Shown here: positions 45,820 to 54,546 of the stretch, one piece after another
How the letters are laid out: each line of letters opens with the position of its first letter
How positions within the stretch are numbered: the stretch's first letter is position 1
From: Candidatus Cacconaster equi
Lineage (GTDB): Bacteria > Bacteroidota > Bacteroidia > Bacteroidales > UBA932
DNA length: 57,578 bases
Reading direction: 5' to 3'
Assembly: GCA_018065895.1 (NCBI GenBank)
Contig: JAGHSK010000041.1
Span: 1 to 57,578, forward strand
Program-made: the position numbers and the translations under genes
Notes under the pieces: model-generated
The model's database searches: none
Told to the model about the DNA's origin: nothing
What the model saw: the letters and a program-made list of their open reading frames with translations, nothing else

Positions 45820-47121
45820 ATGCAACGGGAATTCGATGCCAGACTTGACGCTCTGACTGCCGCCCGGAAGGCCGGCAGCCGTATTTTGATAGCTGTCAGC
45901 GGGGGTATCGATTCCATTTCCATGGCGGACCTGTTCCTCAACAGTTCGCTGGCGCTTCCATTTGCGGTCGCCCACATGAATTTTTCGCTGCGTGGCGATT
46001 GCAGTGACGGGGATGAGGCATATGTGGAAGAATGGTGCCATACGCACAATATACCGTTTTTCTCAAAAAAAGTGGATACGATAAAGTATTCAAAAGACAA
46101 ATCCATCTCTACCCAGATGGCTGCGCGCGAACTGCGTTACGAATGGTTCGACTTGCTGATGAAGGAACATGGATTTGATTACCTCGCCATAGCCCACAAT
46201 CTGAACGACAGTGTTGAAACTTTTTTTCTGAACATCCTCAGGGGAACCGGGATGAAGGGTTTGTCAGGCATTCGCGAGGTCAACGGCAGGATCATCCGTC
46301 CCCTTTTGACCTTTACGCGGGCCCAAATTGAAAATTACGCCAAGGAAAGAAGTCTTGATCATAGAGAGGACGCAACCAACAGGGAAAGCCATTATGCGAG
46401 AAACAGAATCAGGAATGAGGTTTTTCCACAATTCGGGCAGATAAACCCATCCTTCCTTACTACAGTGACCAACGAAATGCGTCATTTCTCAGATATATGT
46501 GAGATAATGGAGGATTTGTACAGGTCGAAGGAGGGCCTTCTTTACGACAGGCAGGATGGCTTCCTCAAAATCAGCATACAGGCGTTGAAAGAAGAGAAGT
46601 ACAGGAGTTTCTGGCTGTTCCGGATGCTGGACGAATACGGCTTCAATGAATCGCAGGTAAATCAGATAGAAGATTCGCTTTCTTCACAGAGTGGAAAAAG
46701 TTTCGTCTCTCCGACACATATTCTGGTTCGTGACAGAGACTACCTGAAACTTCACCTGAGACAGGAACTGCCGCAACTTGAGCTGAAGGTCAGGAAATTC
46801 AGAAGGCCTGAGGATTTCGATCCCAAGCGGTGCCCTGAAGGAGTGCTGTATGTGGATGCGGCTAAGGTGAAATTTCCATTGTCGGCACGGTATCCTCAGC
46901 CGGGAGACAAGTTCAAGCCTTATGGAATGAAGGGTGTGAAACTGCTGAGCGATTTCTTCACTGACCTGAAGCTTGACCTCGAGGAGAAGAAGCGGGAAGC
47001 TGTTGTCGTTATGAAAAATGAAGACGGCGTCGAGCAGATTGTTGGAATCGCAGGACGCCGTATCGATGACCGTTTCAAGATTACGGACAGGACAAAGACT
47101 ATTTTGCAGTTTTCTCTGTAG
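45820..47121 (+). CDS. tilS: tRNA(Ile)-lysidine synthase
   Basis: A 433-residue TilS, which converts C34 of the minor tRNA-Ile to lysidine. The ATP pyrophosphatase loop SGGIDS is at 27-32, and HMNFSLRGDCSDGDE and IAHNLNDSVETFFLNILRGTG are conserved. The C-terminal TilS domain is present (SARYPQPGDKFKPYGMKG). The ATG is preferred to a GTG one codon earlier that overlaps the upstream stop. The 3' end overlaps the convergent HMA gene by 23 bp. Confidence 0.95.
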   Translation: MQREFDARLDALTAARKAGSRILIAVSGGIDSISMADLFLNSSLALPFAVAHMNFSLRGDCSDGDEAYVEEWCHTHNIPFFSKKVDTIKYSKDKSISTQMAARELRYEWFDLLMKEHGFDYLAIAHNLNDSVETFFLNILRGTGMKGLSGIREVNGRIIRPLLTFTRAQIENYAKERSLDHREDATNRESHYARNRIRNEVFPQFGQINPSFLTTVTNEMRHFSDICEIMEDLYRSKEGLLYDRQDGFLKISIQALKEEKYRSFWLFRMLDEYGFNESQVNQIEDSLSSQSGKSFVSPTHILVRDRDYLKLHLRQELPQLELKVRKFRRPEDFDPKRCPEGVLYVDAAKVKFPLSARYPQPGDKFKPYGMKGVKLLSDFFTDLKLDLEEKKREAVVVMKNEDGVEQIVGIAGRRIDDRFKITDRTKTILQFSL

Positions 47122-47413
47122 CCTTGAAACCGAGTTTCTGAATTGCGGCTGCCAGTTTTTCCTTGTCGGTCTTGGTCGCGTCGTATTTGATCCATACAGT
47201 CTTGTCTGCCAGAGTGACCTTCATGTCTTTGATGCCCTTCTCGTCAGGAAGCTTTGCTTCAATCTTCTTGACACAGTTCTTGCAATCAATGGTTGTAACG
47301 AAAGTAACCTCTTGAATTGAGGCGTCTTTTTTCTTTTTGTCACTTGCATCAGCGTCAATGGCAAATGATCCGATCAGGATGACAGCTGCTAGAATTGAGA
47401 GAAATCTTTTCAT
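47099..47413 (-). CDS. Secreted heavy-metal-associated (HMA) domain protein
   Basis: A 104-residue exported protein with signal peptide ending near DADA (residue 23). One HMA domain fills about 33-100: VTFVTTIDCKNCVKKIEAKL, with the metal-binding pair Cys44 and Cys47. The usual Met before the first Cys is replaced (TIDC rather than GMTC). A betaalphabeta-betaalphabeta fold is predicted by family. Unlike CopZ it is exported, so it would bind metal, probably Cu(I), in the periplasm. It is last in the metal operon, 25 bp after the TonB receptor gene. Confidence 0.86.
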   Translation of the reverse strand: MKRFLSILAAVILIGSFAIDADASDKKKKDASIQEVTFVTTIDCKNCVKKIEAKLPDEKGIKDMKVTLADKTVWIKYDATKTDKEKLAAAIQKLGFKATEKTAK

Positions 47414-47438
47414 TTTCTTGTGATTTTATATTGTTTCT

Positions 47439-49673
47439 TTATTTCCAAAGTGTATATCTGAGGCCGGCATATACTTTTGCTCCCATAAGCGGCCCCCATA
47501 CGAAACTGGCGTTGAAATTCTCCGAGAACGGATCCGAAGCCGAGATGATGGCGTCTTTTTGACGGAAATTGCCGATGTTCTCTCCGCCCACATAGACTTC
47601 AACCCCTCCTCTGAATTTATATGTAACCTGCGCGAAGAACATAGGATAGACGGGTGACTGCTCCATCTTCCAGGCTTTTGCCGCCGGAGCAGGAAGCTTC
47701 ATAGGTCCGTTGAGCTGTGCCGTGAAGTCGAATATCCACCTGTTCATCGGAAGAGCATATTGCATATTGAGGACCCCTTTGTAGCGGCTTGTCATCGGTC
47801 TTTCGACGAGCCCCTGATTCATGAGGGTAACCTTGGCGTCGCTATATCTGAAGGTTGCGGTAATATTGAACCTCTCGACGGGATCGACCGAGAAGTCAAC
47901 CTGATATGTATTGGTGTAGGACTTTCCGTCAGGATCAAGGTTGTAGAATGCCGTAACATCAGGATTCTCCTGGTCAACAATGACCTGCTTGTTGAATCTG
48001 TTGTGAAAATAGTCGAAGCTCAGGAATGTGTTGCCTTCCTCAGCCCCGAACGGGAGGTAGAATGTTGCATTGGCTCCGAATGTCCACGCGTCTTCAAGAA
48101 GATTGAGGTCATTGCTGAATGCCATCGGACTACCGGTGGAGAGGACTCCGAGATTGTCGGTAATTATGTTGGCCGTGCGGTATCCTCGTCCTCCCAAAGC
48201 TCTCAACACGATATCTTCAGTGACAGAATATTTGATGTTCGCTCTTGGCGCAAAAAGCCATCCGTGCAGAGAGTTGTATTCGAGATTGAGCCCTCCTACA
48301 AAGGTAAGTTTTTCGTCCAGTGTGAAGGTGTATTCTCCGAACAATGCGCCGGAGGTCTCCTTACGGCTCCCATCATACAAAGTGAGGGGGATAACGTTTC
48401 TGACGAGTTTCTGGCTGATGCCGTCATATTGGGCTGTCAACCCGAATTCCACCTTGTGCAGTTCGTTTATTTCATTCTGGTATATCAGGTTGGCGAAAAC
48501 CGAGTTCTGCTTTCCGTTAAAGTCCTTCATACCGAAGAATGAATCAAACTCGTGATGGTTGAAATCCAATACGAGGGCGATGTTGGCGCTGTTGTCCTCA
48601 TTCAGAGGAACACCTATCTTCAGATAAGGGTTGATACCTTTGTTCTGGATTCTGGACCCCCATATCATATTGTTGAGGTTCCAGGTATTGTCCTTCGTGG
48701 CATCCATCTGGCCACCGAGGCGGTCATCGTAGATATATCTCGCACCGAAGCGTATCTGCATGCCGTTGGGAGCATAGTAAAGCCATCTGCTTGCGAAGTT
48801 GAGCTGCAGATCCTGTGGCTCGTCACGGAAGCCGTCCTGATTGTGGTCCATCCTGGAAGCGGTGCCCCCCACGTGGGCCAGATTGATCACGCTCCATTTC
48901 TCGTTGATTTGAAGAGCGGAAGCGACATTCGCCTCAAACATTTTGTCGAGGCTGCCGTACAACTGGACGAACAGAGGCGTTTCGTCAGTAGGCTTTCTGT
49001 GCTCCATATTGATCTGACCCGTAATGGCTTCCAATCCATTGATGACGGAAGACGGGCCTTTTGCGATCTGGATGCTCTCAAGCCACTGTCCGGGTACGAA
49101 TGAGAGACCGAACGGACTGGCCAGCGCACGCATCACCGGGCGGTTTTCATCAAGCATCTGAGTGTATGTGCCGGAGAGACCGAGCAACTTGATCTGTCTT
49201 GCGCCTGTTACTGCGTCAGAATAGCCTACAGTGACGCTTGCCGAGTTTTCAAAGCTCTCCGCAAGCGCACAACAAGCCATTTTGCACAGTCCGGCAGATG
49301 TTATGACCTCCGTCCTGACGGGCTTGAGTTTGGACAGGCCCGACTGCTTTGCAGTGACTACCGATTCTGACAGATCGTTTTCGCCCGTGAGGAAAAAATC
49401 GGCGGAAGAGGTACCGGGCTCAACGGTTACCGTGTCCTTCGAATAGCCTACATAGGTGGCTATGAGCGTGGCTTTTTCTGTGATATTGAGATTGAACTTT
49501 CCGTTTTCGTCAGCCTCGTAAAGTTTTGCCTTCTCAAGGTGATATACTTGAGCGAAGGGGAGGATTTCAGCGGATTTACCAGGCCTGTTGCCGTACACGG
49601 TTCCCTGAAAGTTCTGTGCTGCGGCAACCGTCCCGATTGCAGCGAGCACCATTATGAATAGTGTCTTTTTCAT
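47439..49673 (-). CDS. TonB-dependent receptor, probably metal-related
   Basis: A 744-residue outer-membrane receptor. Signal peptide to about 19, a carboxypeptidase-regulatory-like domain (about 22-95), a plug (about 105-225) and a C-terminal barrel ending GLRYTLWK. The plug carries a three-Cys patch Cys130, Cys134 and Cys135 (GLCKMACCALAESFENSASV), a motif seen in receptors next to heavy-metal proteins. It would import a metal or metal complex using TonB energy. Its neighbours are an HMA protein and a His/Cys-rich protein. The metal is unknown; copper is the leading guess. Confidence 0.88.
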   Translation of the reverse strand: MKKTLFIMVLAAIGTVAAAQNFQGTVYGNRPGKSAEILPFAQVYHLEKAKLYEADENGKFNLNITEKATLIATYVGYSKDTVTVEPGTSSADFFLTGENDLSESVVTAKQSGLSKLKPVRTEVITSAGLCKMACCALAESFENSASVTVGYSDAVTGARQIKLLGLSGTYTQMLDENRPVMRALASPFGLSFVPGQWLESIQIAKGPSSVINGLEAITGQINMEHRKPTDETPLFVQLYGSLDKMFEANVASALQINEKWSVINLAHVGGTASRMDHNQDGFRDEPQDLQLNFASRWLYYAPNGMQIRFGARYIYDDRLGGQMDATKDNTWNLNNMIWGSRIQNKGINPYLKIGVPLNEDNSANIALVLDFNHHEFDSFFGMKDFNGKQNSVFANLIYQNEINELHKVEFGLTAQYDGISQKLVRNVIPLTLYDGSRKETSGALFGEYTFTLDEKLTFVGGLNLEYNSLHGWLFAPRANIKYSVTEDIVLRALGGRGYRTANIITDNLGVLSTGSPMAFSNDLNLLEDAWTFGANATFYLPFGAEEGNTFLSFDYFHNRFNKQVIVDQENPDVTAFYNLDPDGKSYTNTYQVDFSVDPVERFNITATFRYSDAKVTLMNQGLVERPMTSRYKGVLNMQYALPMNRWIFDFTAQLNGPMKLPAPAAKAWKMEQSPVYPMFFAQVTYKFRGGVEVYVGGENIGNFRQKDAIISASDPFSENFNASFVWGPLMGAKVYAGLRYTLWK

Positions 49674-49690
49674 TTTTCAATACGTGATAT

Positions 49691-49726
49691 TAAAGTTTGA
49701 GTGCTATCTGAAAAGCTCAAACTTTA
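49691..49726. promoter_or_regulatory. 11-bp inverted repeat between the His/Cys-rich and receptor genes
   Basis: TAAAGTTTGAG and CTCAAACTTTA are perfect arms separated by 14 bp. One arm overlaps the stop codon of the upstream gene. No T tract follows on either strand, so it could be an RNA-processing hairpin or an operator. Confidence 0.5.
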
Positions 49727-50188
49727 CAATCTCCATATTGAAAGCTGTTCAAGGCTGATGCCTGGAATTAAAGGCGGGGCAAGATTTTTGACGGATGAAT
49801 AACAGCAGTTGCTGGCTGTTGCCTCGGAAAAAGATGAAATGAACAGAACGATTGAGTCAGGCGCGACGACCATATTCCGGTTATCCGAATCCTGCGCATC
49901 CGTCACGGCATATACATTTGTTTCGCAATCCTCTTCAACCTCTGAGAAGGCATCGCATCCATGGCATCCTTTGCAGGATGAGGTGTGTGATTTCGGGCAG
50001 TCGTGGTGATGGTCGTGGTGATGGTCGTGGTGGTGTTCGTGAATCGCTTCGGTGGAGGTGTCCCCAATCAGAGGGACAAGATATGCGGCTCTTTCCTCAT
50101 GGCAAAAGTGTATCCCGCAGCCGATGTGTGAGGCTACGTAAAGTACAGCTACAAAAGCACAGAGAATATGTCGAATCGCACCTTTCAT
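49724..50188 (-). CDS. His/Cys-rich HYC_CC_PP-like putative metal-binding protein
   Basis: A 154-residue protein with an N-terminal hydrophobic segment (about 8-24). It shows the three short marks that name the HYC_CC_PP family: HFC at 27-29 (for HYC), CC at 128-129 and PP at 138-139 in LAPPL. A His run (about 50-63) and Cys72, Cys75 and Cys78 in SCKGCHGC lie between. These residues suggest binding of a transition metal outside the cytoplasm. It is first gene of the operon with the TonB receptor and HMA gene. Function is unproven. Confidence 0.72.
   Translation of the reverse strand: MKGAIRHILCAFVAVLYVASHIGCGIHFCHEERAAYLVPLIGDTSTEAIHEHHHDHHHDHHHDCPKSHTSSCKGCHGCDAFSEVEEDCETNVYAVTDAQDSDNRNMVVAPDSIVLFISSFSEATASNCCYSSVKNLAPPLIPGISLEQLSIWRL
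50001..50036. repeat. Three 12-bp tandem repeats coding the His run
   Basis: TCGTGGTGATGG occurs twice in a row, then a third copy TCGTGGTGGTGT. It encodes HHDH-type units in frame, so copy-number slippage would lengthen or shorten the His run without frameshift. Confidence 0.8.
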
Positions 50189-50193
50189 TATGG

Positions 50194-50226
50194 CAAAAGT
50201 AAGCAGTTTTTATTATATTTGCAAAA
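50194..50226 (-). promoter_or_regulatory. Promoter of the metal operon
   Basis: On the minus strand TTTTG (50222-50226), 20-bp spacer, TACTTTTG (50194-50201): a full match. Only 5 bp separate the -7 box from the ATG. Confidence 0.8.
50214..50221 (+). promoter_or_regulatory. -7 box for sppA
   Basis: TATATTTG, full match, 35 bp before the sppA ATG. It falls inside the spacer of the divergent metal-operon promoter. Confidence 0.68.
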
Positions 50227-52017: not shown

Positions 52018-54546
52018 ATGAAACGCTCACTTGGATTGAAAATTTTGCTCGGAGCATTCCTGTTGACTGCCTCCGTGTTCTTTGCCGATGCCCAGACCTG
52101 GATCAGGATCAATCAGGTGGGCTATCTTCCCGAAGATGTGAAGGTGGCAGTCCTGATCTCCCTTGACCGGACATCAGGTGATTTTGAAGTGCATGATGCA
52201 ATCTCCGACGAACTTGTGTTCAAGAGCAAGGGCAGAAAGGCCAATCCGGCCAAGTGGGCGATGAAAAGTGCATTCAGGCTGGATTTCTCTCCACTTCGGA
52301 ACTCCGGTTCATACTATATTCTGAGCAACGGCGAGAAATCTCCCGTATTCAGAATCGGTGCCGACGTTTATGACGGTCTGGCTGATTTCCTGTTGACCTA
52401 CATGAGGCAGCAGCGGTGTGGCGACAACCCTTATACTGAACACCTTTGCCACCAGCACGACGGCTATATTGTCGATCATCCCACAAAAAGCGGGCAGAAA
52501 ATCGACGTGACGGGAGGCTGGCACGATGCCGCCGACTATCTCCAGTATATGACGACATCATCCACTTCAATCTATCAGATGGCCTTTGCATACAAGTATA
52601 CGAAGGACAAGAGCATTTTCAAGGATGAATATAATGCTAGAGGCCGCAAAGGGTCGAATGGGATTCCTGACATTCTCGACGAGGTGAAATGGGGGTTGGA
52701 CTGGCTTGATAAGATGAATCCCGCGCCTCGTGAGATGTACTATCAGATAGCAGATGACCGTGATCATGCCGGGATGAGGGAACCTTACCTCGATTCTGTC
52801 GATTATGGCTACGGAAAGGGCCTGGGGAGGCCTGTGTATTTTGTAACAGGAAAGCCTCAGATTGCCTACAAGAAGGTCAACAGGACAACCGGCGTCTCCT
52901 CTGCCGCCGGAAAATTCGCCTCCACTTTTGCTTTGGGAGCAGACGTTATTGGAGAGTACTATCCTGAATTCGCGGAAAAAATCAAAGGAAAGGTAAAAGA
53001 TGCCTATGACTTTGCATTGGAATTTCCGGGCAATACCCAGACAGCCTGTGTAGTCTCTCCGTATTTTTATGAAGAGGACACCTGGGTCGATGACGTTGAA
53101 CTTGCCGCCGCCACGATGTACACTCTCAACGGTGGGGAATATTGGAAGAAGCAGGCCTCATACTGGGGCGAGCTTGAGCCGGTTTCACCTTGGATGGAGC
53201 GTGGCCGCGGACCTGGTAAGGAATATCACCACTATCAGTGGTATCCGTTCATTAATCTCGGCCATTACCTCCTTGCAAAGAGCGAGGACGAGACTGTAAG
53301 CAAGGAGTTTTCGGAATATATGCGTCAGGGCCTTCAGGACCTCAAGGACAGGGCTGGGGACGAGCCTTTCATGCATGGCGTGCCTTATTTGTGGTGTTCG
53401 AACAACCTGACATCCTCGGCAGCCACACAGGCGCACCTCTACGAAGAGGCTACGGGCGACACCCAGTTCAGGGAGATGGAGGCGGCTCTTCGCGATTGGC
53501 TGCTCGGATGCAATCCGTGGGGCACTACAATGATATGCGGATATCCGCAGGTCTCTCTTTCAGGGTATGACTATCCCAGCGATCCTCACTCTTCTTATGT
53601 GAAGGTTGACGGAGCATTGCCTCTTGGCGGACTCATTGACGGGCCTATCCTGAAAGAACTCTTTATGGAAAGAGCCGGAGCTTCACTTACAAGAGAGGAT
53701 CCTTTTGCTGATTTGAACAATGGACAGGCCGTATATCACGACGACATAGGAGACTATGCCAGCAATGAGCCGACAATGGACGGAACAGCCGGTCTTGCCT
53801 ACTATTTTGCAGCAATGGAGCAGAACGGCCGGGAACAGGCTGTTGAACAACCCCGGGTTGTCAAGGATGAAAGAGGAGCAGTTGTCCGCATCAATCCTGA
53901 TACCAAAACAATATATCTTTGCTTTACGGCAGATGAGATGTTCAATGGCGCCAAAACGATACTCGACATTCTGTCAAAGAACAGGATCAAGGGAAATTTC
54001 TTCCTGACCGGCAATTGTCTGCGTATGGATGAGCATAAGGATGTCATTGACCGAATCGTTGCGGAAGGCCATTATCTGGGAGGCCATTCGGACGGCCACG
54101 TGCTTTATGCCGACTGGGGCGGTGACAGGCCTTCTCTCATGACAGCCGACAGCATTGCAACTGACCTGAAGGCCAACTATGCTGAACTGGCGAAATTTGG
54201 AATTACTCCTCAGAAGGCGCGGTGGTTCCTCCCGCCATACGAACATTACAACACTTCGAGTGTTCAGGCCATAGAAGCAATGGGAATCAGACTTGTCAAC
54301 TATACTCCCGGCATAGGCACCCCTGCCGATTACACGACTCCTGATATGAAAAGCTACCGCAAGGCGCAGACGCTTATTGACGGACTCTATAAATTCGAAA
54401 AGGATGCGGGGCTGAATGGCGCGTTGCTTCTTATCCATCCGGGAATAAGCCAGGCGCGTCCTGAATCCGAGCGCCTTTACAACAGGCTTGACGAAATTGT
54501 GAAATATCTTAAGAAAAAAGGTTACAGCTTTGGAAAACTTGACTGA
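52018..54546 (+). CDS. Glycoside hydrolase family 9 fused to a polysaccharide deacetylase (CE4-like)
   Basis: An 842-residue secreted protein, signal peptide to about 25. A CelD-type N-terminal Ig domain (about 27-115; IRINQVGYLPED) precedes a GH9 (alpha/alpha)6 domain (about 118-605) with the catalytic Asp pair in GGWHDAADY (Asp170, Asp173) and probable acid Glu584 (SNEPTMDG). Residues about 625-842 form a NodB/CE4-like domain with Asp639-Glu640 (TADE for the usual FDD), His690 and His694 (GGHSDGH) and FLPPYEHYN. GH9 enzymes cleave beta-1,4-glucans; the deacetylase suggests an acetylated or amino-sugar glycan. The Asp-to-Glu change at a metal position is noteworthy. Confidence 0.88.
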   Translation: MKRSLGLKILLGAFLLTASVFFADAQTWIRINQVGYLPEDVKVAVLISLDRTSGDFEVHDAISDELVFKSKGRKANPAKWAMKSAFRLDFSPLRNSGSYYILSNGEKSPVFRIGADVYDGLADFLLTYMRQQRCGDNPYTEHLCHQHDGYIVDHPTKSGQKIDVTGGWHDAADYLQYMTTSSTSIYQMAFAYKYTKDKSIFKDEYNARGRKGSNGIPDILDEVKWGLDWLDKMNPAPREMYYQIADDRDHAGMREPYLDSVDYGYGKGLGRPVYFVTGKPQIAYKKVNRTTGVSSAAGKFASTFALGADVIGEYYPEFAEKIKGKVKDAYDFALEFPGNTQTACVVSPYFYEEDTWVDDVELAAATMYTLNGGEYWKKQASYWGELEPVSPWMERGRGPGKEYHHYQWYPFINLGHYLLAKSEDETVSKEFSEYMRQGLQDLKDRAGDEPFMHGVPYLWCSNNLTSSAATQAHLYEEATGDTQFREMEAALRDWLLGCNPWGTTMICGYPQVSLSGYDYPSDPHSSYVKVDGALPLGGLIDGPILKELFMERAGASLTREDPFADLNNGQAVYHDDIGDYASNEPTMDGTAGLAYYFAAMEQNGREQAVEQPRVVKDERGAVVRINPDTKTIYLCFTADEMFNGAKTILDILSKNRIKGNFFLTGNCLRMDEHKDVIDRIVAEGHYLGGHSDGHVLYADWGGDRPSLMTADSIATDLKANYAELAKFGITPQKARWFLPPYEHYNTSSVQAIEAMGIRLVNYTPGIGTPADYTTPDMKSYRKAQTLIDGLYKFEKDAGLNGALLLIHPGISQARPESERLYNRLDEIVKYLKKKGYSFGKLD

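Follow-up and report, generated by a model that had tools for sequence, protein, structure and literature searches.

A three-gene TonB receptor operon conserved in Bacteroidota, with a first gene that is probably a nascent-chain leader

The window analysed here is a 57,578-nucleotide (nt) stretch of Candidatus Cacconaster equi (contig JAGHSK010000041.1 of GCA_018065895.1, an assembly of 1.65 Mb in 61 contigs that is 84% complete). It carries a minus-strand operon of three genes (Table 1), namely a His/Cys-rich gene (hereafter gene 1), a TonB-dependent receptor gene and a gene for an HMA protein, separated by gaps of 50 nt (gene 1 to receptor) and 25 nt (receptor to HMA). The initial annotation had read them as one module of closely spaced minus-strand genes behind a single promoter, and both the open reading frames (ORFs) and the promoter were recovered. 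The latter is of a Bacteroidota type that a separate sigma70-type scan does not cover; its motif, TTTG-N20-TACTTTTG, occurs at four sites in the window against 0.55 expected, and none of 100 shuffles reached four.

Table 1. Coordinates of the operon and its predicted control elements in the window (aa, amino acids)
Feature	Position	Strand	Description
Gene 1 (His/Cys-rich)	49724-50188	minus	154 aa ORF, C-terminus SIWRL-stop
TonB-dependent receptor gene	47439-49673	minus	744 aa ORF, PF00593 and PF07715, plug motif LCKMACCALAESFENS
HMA protein gene	47099-47413	minus	104 aa ORF, PF00403, CxxC without Met
Bacteroidota-type promoter, TTTG-N20-TACTTTTG	50194-50225	minus	-7 box ends 5 nt ahead of the gene 1 ATG
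Predicted RNA hairpin, gene 1 end/receptor start	49675-49743	minus	Folding against shuffles, opening-cost computation

The -7 box also ends 4-10 nt ahead of the assigned gene 1 ATG in 38 of 55 loci of the window's own family in the genome comparison. Because the box nearly abuts the ATG, the operon mRNA is predicted to be leaderless or nearly so. Such a conserved leaderless mRNA, predicted for the window and these 38 loci, is unusual for Bacteroidota; 5' untranslated regions shorter than 10 nt account for ~3.7% in B. thetaiotaomicron, according to excerpts of PMC7366714.

The genome comparison upholds the three-gene module and shows it to be conserved throughout the Bacteroidota. We found the receptor in 117 of 149 genomes of the own family (E <= 1e-30) and in 115 of 395 genomes across the phylum (E <= 1e-60). 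The initial annotation had expected the three families to be neighbours in related genomes, and they are: in the 70 own-family loci, gene 1 was found upstream of the receptor in 55 (iterated profile search) and the HMA gene downstream in 66. Gene 1 was also found in 84 of the 109 receptor loci from the rest of the phylum, and it lies upstream of the receptor in every receptor locus where it was found. In these 109 loci the HMA domain is encoded downstream (41), upstream (29) or inside the receptor ORF (12; the classes overlap), and was not found within the fetched stretch in 31. All 12 fusions (L135, L137-L141, L147, L148, L035, L043, L054 and L110; some apparently with tandem HMA domains) place the domain N-terminally in the receptor, and thus tie HMA to the receptor; gene 1 was not found beside nine of them (L110, L135, L137-L141, L147 and L148). 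Twenty-four loci have both gene 1 and HMA ahead of the receptor, and 20 of these run gene 1-HMA-receptor. Two loci (L204 and L206) encode two HMA genes after the receptor rather than one. Receptor hits for which no locus came automatically were covered by fetching 120 regions, a part of the hits. A set of named loci (80 kept of 591 relatives found, 76 after removal of four duplicates) contained gene 1 in 57 and HMA in 69 of the 80, and the RAPP ending identified five more copies of gene 1. Of the 80, the named relative closest to the window is L278, from an uncultured Bacteroidales bacterium, whose receptor is 70% identical to that of the window by tblastn and 74% in the alignment.

The His/Cys-rich character that had been given to the first product is borne out by its 16 His and 10 Cys. 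Gene 1 has no Pfam match at E values up to 1, hence none to DUF2946 (PF11162), a family with zero matches in the genome itself. The proposed likeness to HYC_CC_PP holds in part. The curated model (NF047658) gives no match, but an hhalign comparison of the own-family gene 1 alignment with 24 Flavobacterium-type HYC_CC_PP proteins gave a probability of 96.8% and an E value of 2.7e-10 (a single comparison; HMA control, 22.5%), indicating distant profile-level homology, and gene 1 occupies the same place ahead of the same receptor. Tested for the motifs read from the family name, the window copy has HFC and a PP at -17 (counted from the C-terminal end), but DC in place of CC. It has lost two family Cys (SCE to STE, and CC to DC at -68/-67) and has an extra H/C-rich insert. 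A literature search for HYC_CC_PP found no papers.

Three parts of gene 1 hold steady across relatives while the rest varies: the hydrophobic start, which closes with HxC, a CCxTEVY-like block and the C-terminus. With the CC sought at -60 to -90, its distance to the end is 72.3 residues (standard deviation, sd, 2.0; 50 of 52 proteins) in the own family and 74.2 (sd 3.7; 69 of 72) in others, with proteins shorter than 110 aa left out; the sd of the HxC-to-CC distance is 12.2 and 11.1, respectively. Without the restriction, 50 of the 51 own-family proteins that have a CC (52 examined) and 59 of 72 others carry the last one at -66 to -78. The named loci gave 75.7 (sd 5.2, n=45). The own-family C-terminus is often [SQ]xWRL, and 49 of 55 loci end in R[LIV]. 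This Arg at -2 is encoded by all six Arg codons, so the peptide rather than the RNA is conserved there. In 17 named loci (12 found by profile and five by motif; labelled Alistipes in 14, Rikenellaceae in two and Prevotellaceae in one) the protein instead ends in RAPPxxx, with RAPP at exactly -7. RAPP stands at -27 in L341, and gene 1 was not found in L324 (Tidjanibacter). Among 1376 ORFs of at least 100 aa in the 80 loci beyond recognised gene 1, five end in RAPP or RGPP, and these are the five motif-recognised copies. We also noted at L270:1386-3275 (Bacteroidota) a DUF2946 protein above cut-off, ending SLRGPPSYFLAV, directly upstream of a TonB receptor that by eye is apparently a different one.

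An RNA hairpin is predicted across the junction of gene 1 and the receptor gene. Its 5' arm consists of the last gene 1 codons and the stop codon, and its 3' arm ends 1 nt ahead of the receptor ATG (-25.5 kcal/mol, z -5.68, 0 of 200 shuffles). For the window, placing a ribosome on the gene 1 end lowers the computed cost of opening the receptor start from 12.4 to 5.9 kcal/mol. Among loci in which the iterated profile found gene 1 (55 of 70 own-family loci, 84 of 109 others), folding at the gene 1 stop has a mean z of -3.01 in the own family (below -2 in 38 of 55) and -1.74 in the others (35 of 84). As controls, the gene 1 body gave -0.50 (4 of 55 below -2) and -0.61 (9 of 84), and the TonB stop +0.41 (3 of 67) and +0.18 (4 of 50). 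The 5' arm overlaps the last codons or the stop of gene 1 in 65 of the 73 loci with z below -2. Tandem gene pairs from the genome itself have a mean z of -1.42, so z-scores alone are insufficient and the argument rests on the comparison of matched with swapped pairs.

That test takes an assigned start 20-260 nt away and asks how strongly the gene 1 tail pairs with the next start. Pairing was stronger for matched than for swapped partners in the own family (-13.64 vs -8.12 kcal/mol, 53 loci), in other families (-8.99 vs -6.64, 78 loci) and in 49 further named loci whose lineages are partly shared with the first set (-12.78 vs -7.69, p 4.8e-7). Drawing one random locus for each of 17 genera 1000 times gave a mean difference of -4.89, with p<0.05 in 999 draws, and a hand-picked 17-genus test gave p 0.0011. 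Neither control showed the effect: pairing of the TonB stop with the HMA start was if anything weaker for matched partners (-4.85 vs -5.30, 64 own-family loci, p 0.009), and 30 tandem pairs from the genome itself gave -7.98 vs -7.96, with none at -13.6 or lower. MAFFT alignments of the tail/start regions, of which the nine-sequence one is very gapped, were not used for pair counting. These comparisons support, at the sequence level, co-evolution of the last codons and stop of gene 1 with the sequence just ahead of the receptor ATG. The opening-cost computation (assigned start 36-160 nt away) agrees: with a ribosome on the gene 1 end, the predicted cost falls from 10.7 to 4.2 kcal/mol in the own family (by at least 3 kcal/mol in 37 of 49 loci), from 10.4 to 5.5 in other families (54 of 74) and from 10.1 to 5.5 in the named loci (30 of 47), compared with 3.6 to 3.1 in the control (1 of 50).

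Relatives of gene 1 also stand ahead of other genes. Among 70 HYC_CC_PP loci, gene 1 is followed by a receptor gene in 22, by a gene with a CusA-like motif in 29 and by something else in 19; this split is no frequency, as 30 loci were given and 40 were chosen for lacking a nearby receptor. Nine next genes were tested, giving five CusA-like, two HMBD, one HMA and one unmatched. All five CusA-like genes match the RND family (PF00873); their best NCBIfam model is CusA/CzcA (TIGR00914), whose cut-off three of them pass; the sequences are incomplete at the locus end. Two HYC_CC_PP relatives (L228 and L225) precede a 254-aa ORF across a gap of 53 nt, with stop-codon folding z of -5.0 and -3.3; the ORF of L228 has no Pfam match.

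The receptor has the plug and barrel domains expected of its family (PF00593, E 7.3e-17; PF07715, E 6.4e-7; both above cut-off). The three-Cys patch pointed out by the initial annotation is present (C130, C134 and C135, all within the plug), and these are the only Cys of the protein. Both Cys of the plug motif LxKxACCxLxESF are found in 173 of 178 receptor proteins, and H267 is kept in 163 of 178. The AlphaFold model has a mean predicted local distance difference test (pLDDT) score of 73.9 but is of low confidence in the plug, where residues 98-182 and 193-231 score under 50, and it gives no placement for the Cys site. Foldseek with this model returned generic TonB-dependent receptors (PqqU, Cir and ZnuD; template-modelling score about 0.5-0.6), and a sequence search of the PDB returned Cir alone (best E 6.5e-5). 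The CxxC HMA domain reported for the last product was also confirmed (PF00403, E 1e-12), with the metal motif IDCKNC lacking the usual Met. It is the sole HMA domain found in the 84%-complete genome. Its PDB matches are named copper proteins in 25 of 26 cases (copper ATPase and CopZ domains), from a library rich in copper HMA structures. The protein scores below every CopZ cut-off and departs from the cytoplasmic MxCxxC form of CopZ, its location being judged by eye; as had been suspected, it is not a normal CopZ chaperone. Export signals were likewise judged by eye, for gene 1 from its hydrophobic N-terminus.

We read the locus as a metal-uptake operon that is translationally switched by gene 1 acting as a nascent-chain leader, and give this reading a probability of roughly two in three. 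It is supported by operon order, spacing, C-terminal conservation and the RAPP endings of relatives, as read from sequence, and by the hairpin and its co-evolution, a prediction made with controls. The receptor and a periplasmic HMA acceptor, probably for copper, would be under translational control by gene 1, which would be translated from the near-leaderless mRNA, with export of its product during synthesis. The last codons of gene 1 would form the anti-start arm of the hairpin that closes the receptor start. A ribosome held on the gene 1 end would melt the hairpin and allow translation of the receptor and then of the HMA protein; in this model that ribosome probably decides whether the receptor is made. 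Metal on the His/Cys-rich nascent chain would most likely release the hold, letting the hairpin form and shutting down uptake (a CruR-like direction), and the opposite, CutF-like direction is possible. Export, arrest by the xWRL end, metal binding, metal identity, direction and uptake are what we infer. It is close to an even call that HYC_CC_PP-type proteins are phylum-wide nascent-chain metal sensors with a RAPP-independent arrest end (x-W-R-L-stop, with lineage variants), whose arrest codons in Bacteroidales would be antisense to the next start, giving an import switch free of Shine-Dalgarno sites, and whose relatives stand ahead of efflux genes.

Several results weigh against the leader reading. 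The window copy itself has neither the family CC (DC at -68/-67, with another CC at -27) nor RAPP, and outliers of this kind raise the unrestricted CC-to-end sd to 6.6 in the own family and 9.2 in others. The fraction of unpaired start bases in the window is unchanged when the gene 1 end is occupied (0.33 to 0.34), so that energy alone shifts. Tandem pairs from the genome itself have z below -2 at the stop codon in 9 of 30 cases, one at -5.6. The matched partner was best in six of the 17 hand-picked genera and worse than the swap mean in three, and the drop in opening cost is weaker in RAPP loci (8 of 15). Own-partner pairing was not detected in Flavobacterium-type TonB loci (-4.60 vs -4.59, n=22), CusA loci (-6.91 vs -6.29, n=29, p 0.23) or other HYC_CC_PP loci (-7.80 vs -6.10, n=17, p 0.31), and the start mask is therefore not family-wide. 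Four of the 24 loci with both genes upstream (L109, L160, L161 and L164) have a third gene order, with gene 1 directly ahead of the receptor and HMA further upstream. The RNA evidence is all predicted, the loci are related and the assignment of start codons followed a rule. A copper requirement is not evident, as neither a P-type (E1-E2) ATPase nor a heme-copper oxidase (COX1) was found in the genome, a weak negative at 84% completeness. The CusA/CzcA family covers metals besides copper, its pumps also moving cobalt, zinc and cadmium.

The initial annotation had proposed a relay, with metal bound first by the gene 1 product (in the periplasm or at the cell surface), then taken across by the receptor and handed to the HMA protein, or the reverse. 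The conserved neighbourhood and the HMA domains fused to receptors uphold part of this, and gene 1 is rich in metal ligands; gene 1 as the first, simple metal carrier was rejected. Gene 1 is probably a nascent-chain leader regulator rather than a link in such a relay, because its CC-to-end spacing is near-fixed and its C-terminus codon-independent, its last codons pair with the next start, relatives have RAPP endings and other relatives stand ahead of efflux genes. The relay is compatible with the scarcity of gene 1 beside fused-HMA receptors and with a His-rich part that varies in length next to a constant C-terminus, although both count against it, and we consider it very unlikely. Plain translational coupling, in which a ribosome that completes gene 1 frees the receptor start, neither sensing nor arrest takes place and gene 1 is an exported metal-binding protein, seems rather unlikely. 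The hairpin and the pairing would require only a translating ribosome, and gene 1 retains many His and Cys, but coupling leaves unexplained why the CC-to-end length is nearly constant although this segment is poorly conserved, as well as the Arg at -2 with its six codons, RAPP at -7 in 17 relatives and the relatives ahead of efflux genes.

The hairpin could also act on transcription, as a weak terminator or by uncovering a Rho site, without a held ribosome (CruR-type). CruR does act via Rho, and the strong hairpins do overlap the gene 1 end, but at least five T in the 8 nt after the stem occur in only 7 of the 73 loci with z below -2, on which ground an ordinary intrinsic terminator was rejected, and the 3' arm is often followed directly by the start codon instead of a U-tract; with Rho sites not searched for, we regard attenuation as unlikely. 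A metal other than copper (zinc, nickel, cobalt or iron) would be compatible with the leader reading and is a possible, if doubtful, alternative. In its favour, COX1 matches occur in 6 of 149 family genomes, one above cut-off, searches of 12 genomes from the genus found no E1-E2 ATPase in 8, CutF-like proteins beside nickel/cobalt genes are on record in excerpts of PMC9973294, and the other substrates of CusA/CzcA pumps count the same way. Against it stand the proximity of the HMA domain to copper domains in the PDB, with the bias of that library noted above, and the CruR and CutF precedents, both of which concern copper.

Two features of the surroundings were noted. The HMA gene (minus strand) and a tilS-like gene (plus strand) overlap convergently by 23 nt at their 3' ends (47099-47121), and an ORF at 52018-54546 (plus strand) encodes a glycoside hydrolase family 9 (GH9) cellulase with CelD_N fused to a polysaccharide deacetylase domain.

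Translation initiation in Bacteroidota does without Shine-Dalgarno sequences in the mRNA and is tuned by structure (excerpts of PMC6847099), which makes their translational switching a live question. If true, the leader reading would assign a role to a family whose name rests on its motifs alone and provide a ready-made, testable translational switch in these bacteria. It would also single out a candidate system for metal (copper) uptake across the outer membrane of gut bacteria, and would add to the metal-sensing leader peptides a type that published filters based on PP miss.

By analogy, gene 1 would belong to a leader class that is already known, with CruR and CutF as experimental precedents. 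The Bordetella pertussis operon CruR (DUF2946)-BfrG/CrtA-BP2921 (excerpts of PMC9426467 and PMC12914433) resembles ours in its three genes, with an exported-type Cys leader first and a TonB receptor second, and in the conserved spacing from a Cys motif to the C-terminal end or arrest motif; the RAPP three residues ahead of the end is shared by the 17 Alistipes-type relatives. In vitro work has shown that CruR arrests in a RAPP-dependent manner (excerpts of PMC12992588). In contrast, gene 1 of the window ends in SIWRL without RAPP, the spacing here is ~70 aa to the end rather than 45 between motifs, a 50-nt gap with a start-masking hairpin replaces the 162-nt Rho-controlled gap, and the third gene encodes an HMA protein in a genome without a DUF2946 match. 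The COX1 counts given above do not support, for the own family, a tie to heme-copper oxidases like that of CrtA. CutF-CutO-CutG of Rhodobacter capsulatus (excerpts of PMC9973294) likewise has an exported-type leader with a Cys motif and a stem-loop that closes the next start until a ribosome on the leader opens it, as predicted here; its survey of CutF-like proteins already counts Bacteroidota members and TonB and CusA neighbours. Gene 1 differs in that the 5' arm lies within the leader's own last codons, in a phylum without Shine-Dalgarno sites, and in failing the CutF-like filters of that source (<150 aa, PP in the last 15) with 154 aa and PP at -17, as do 49 of 53 own-family relatives. The copper receptor OprC (PMC8610252) would be comparable as a TonB-dependent receptor for metal, but its CxxxM and HxM (excerpts of PMC11213822) are both missing from the window receptor. 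No paper on this operon was found among the titles listed, and the family may figure in the published CutF-like supplementary lists. The gene 1 system is probably a RAPP-less variant of these known leaders, presumably free of Shine-Dalgarno sites; what appears to be new, within the literature searched, is this RAPP-less form, its failure of the published filters and the co-evolving start mask.

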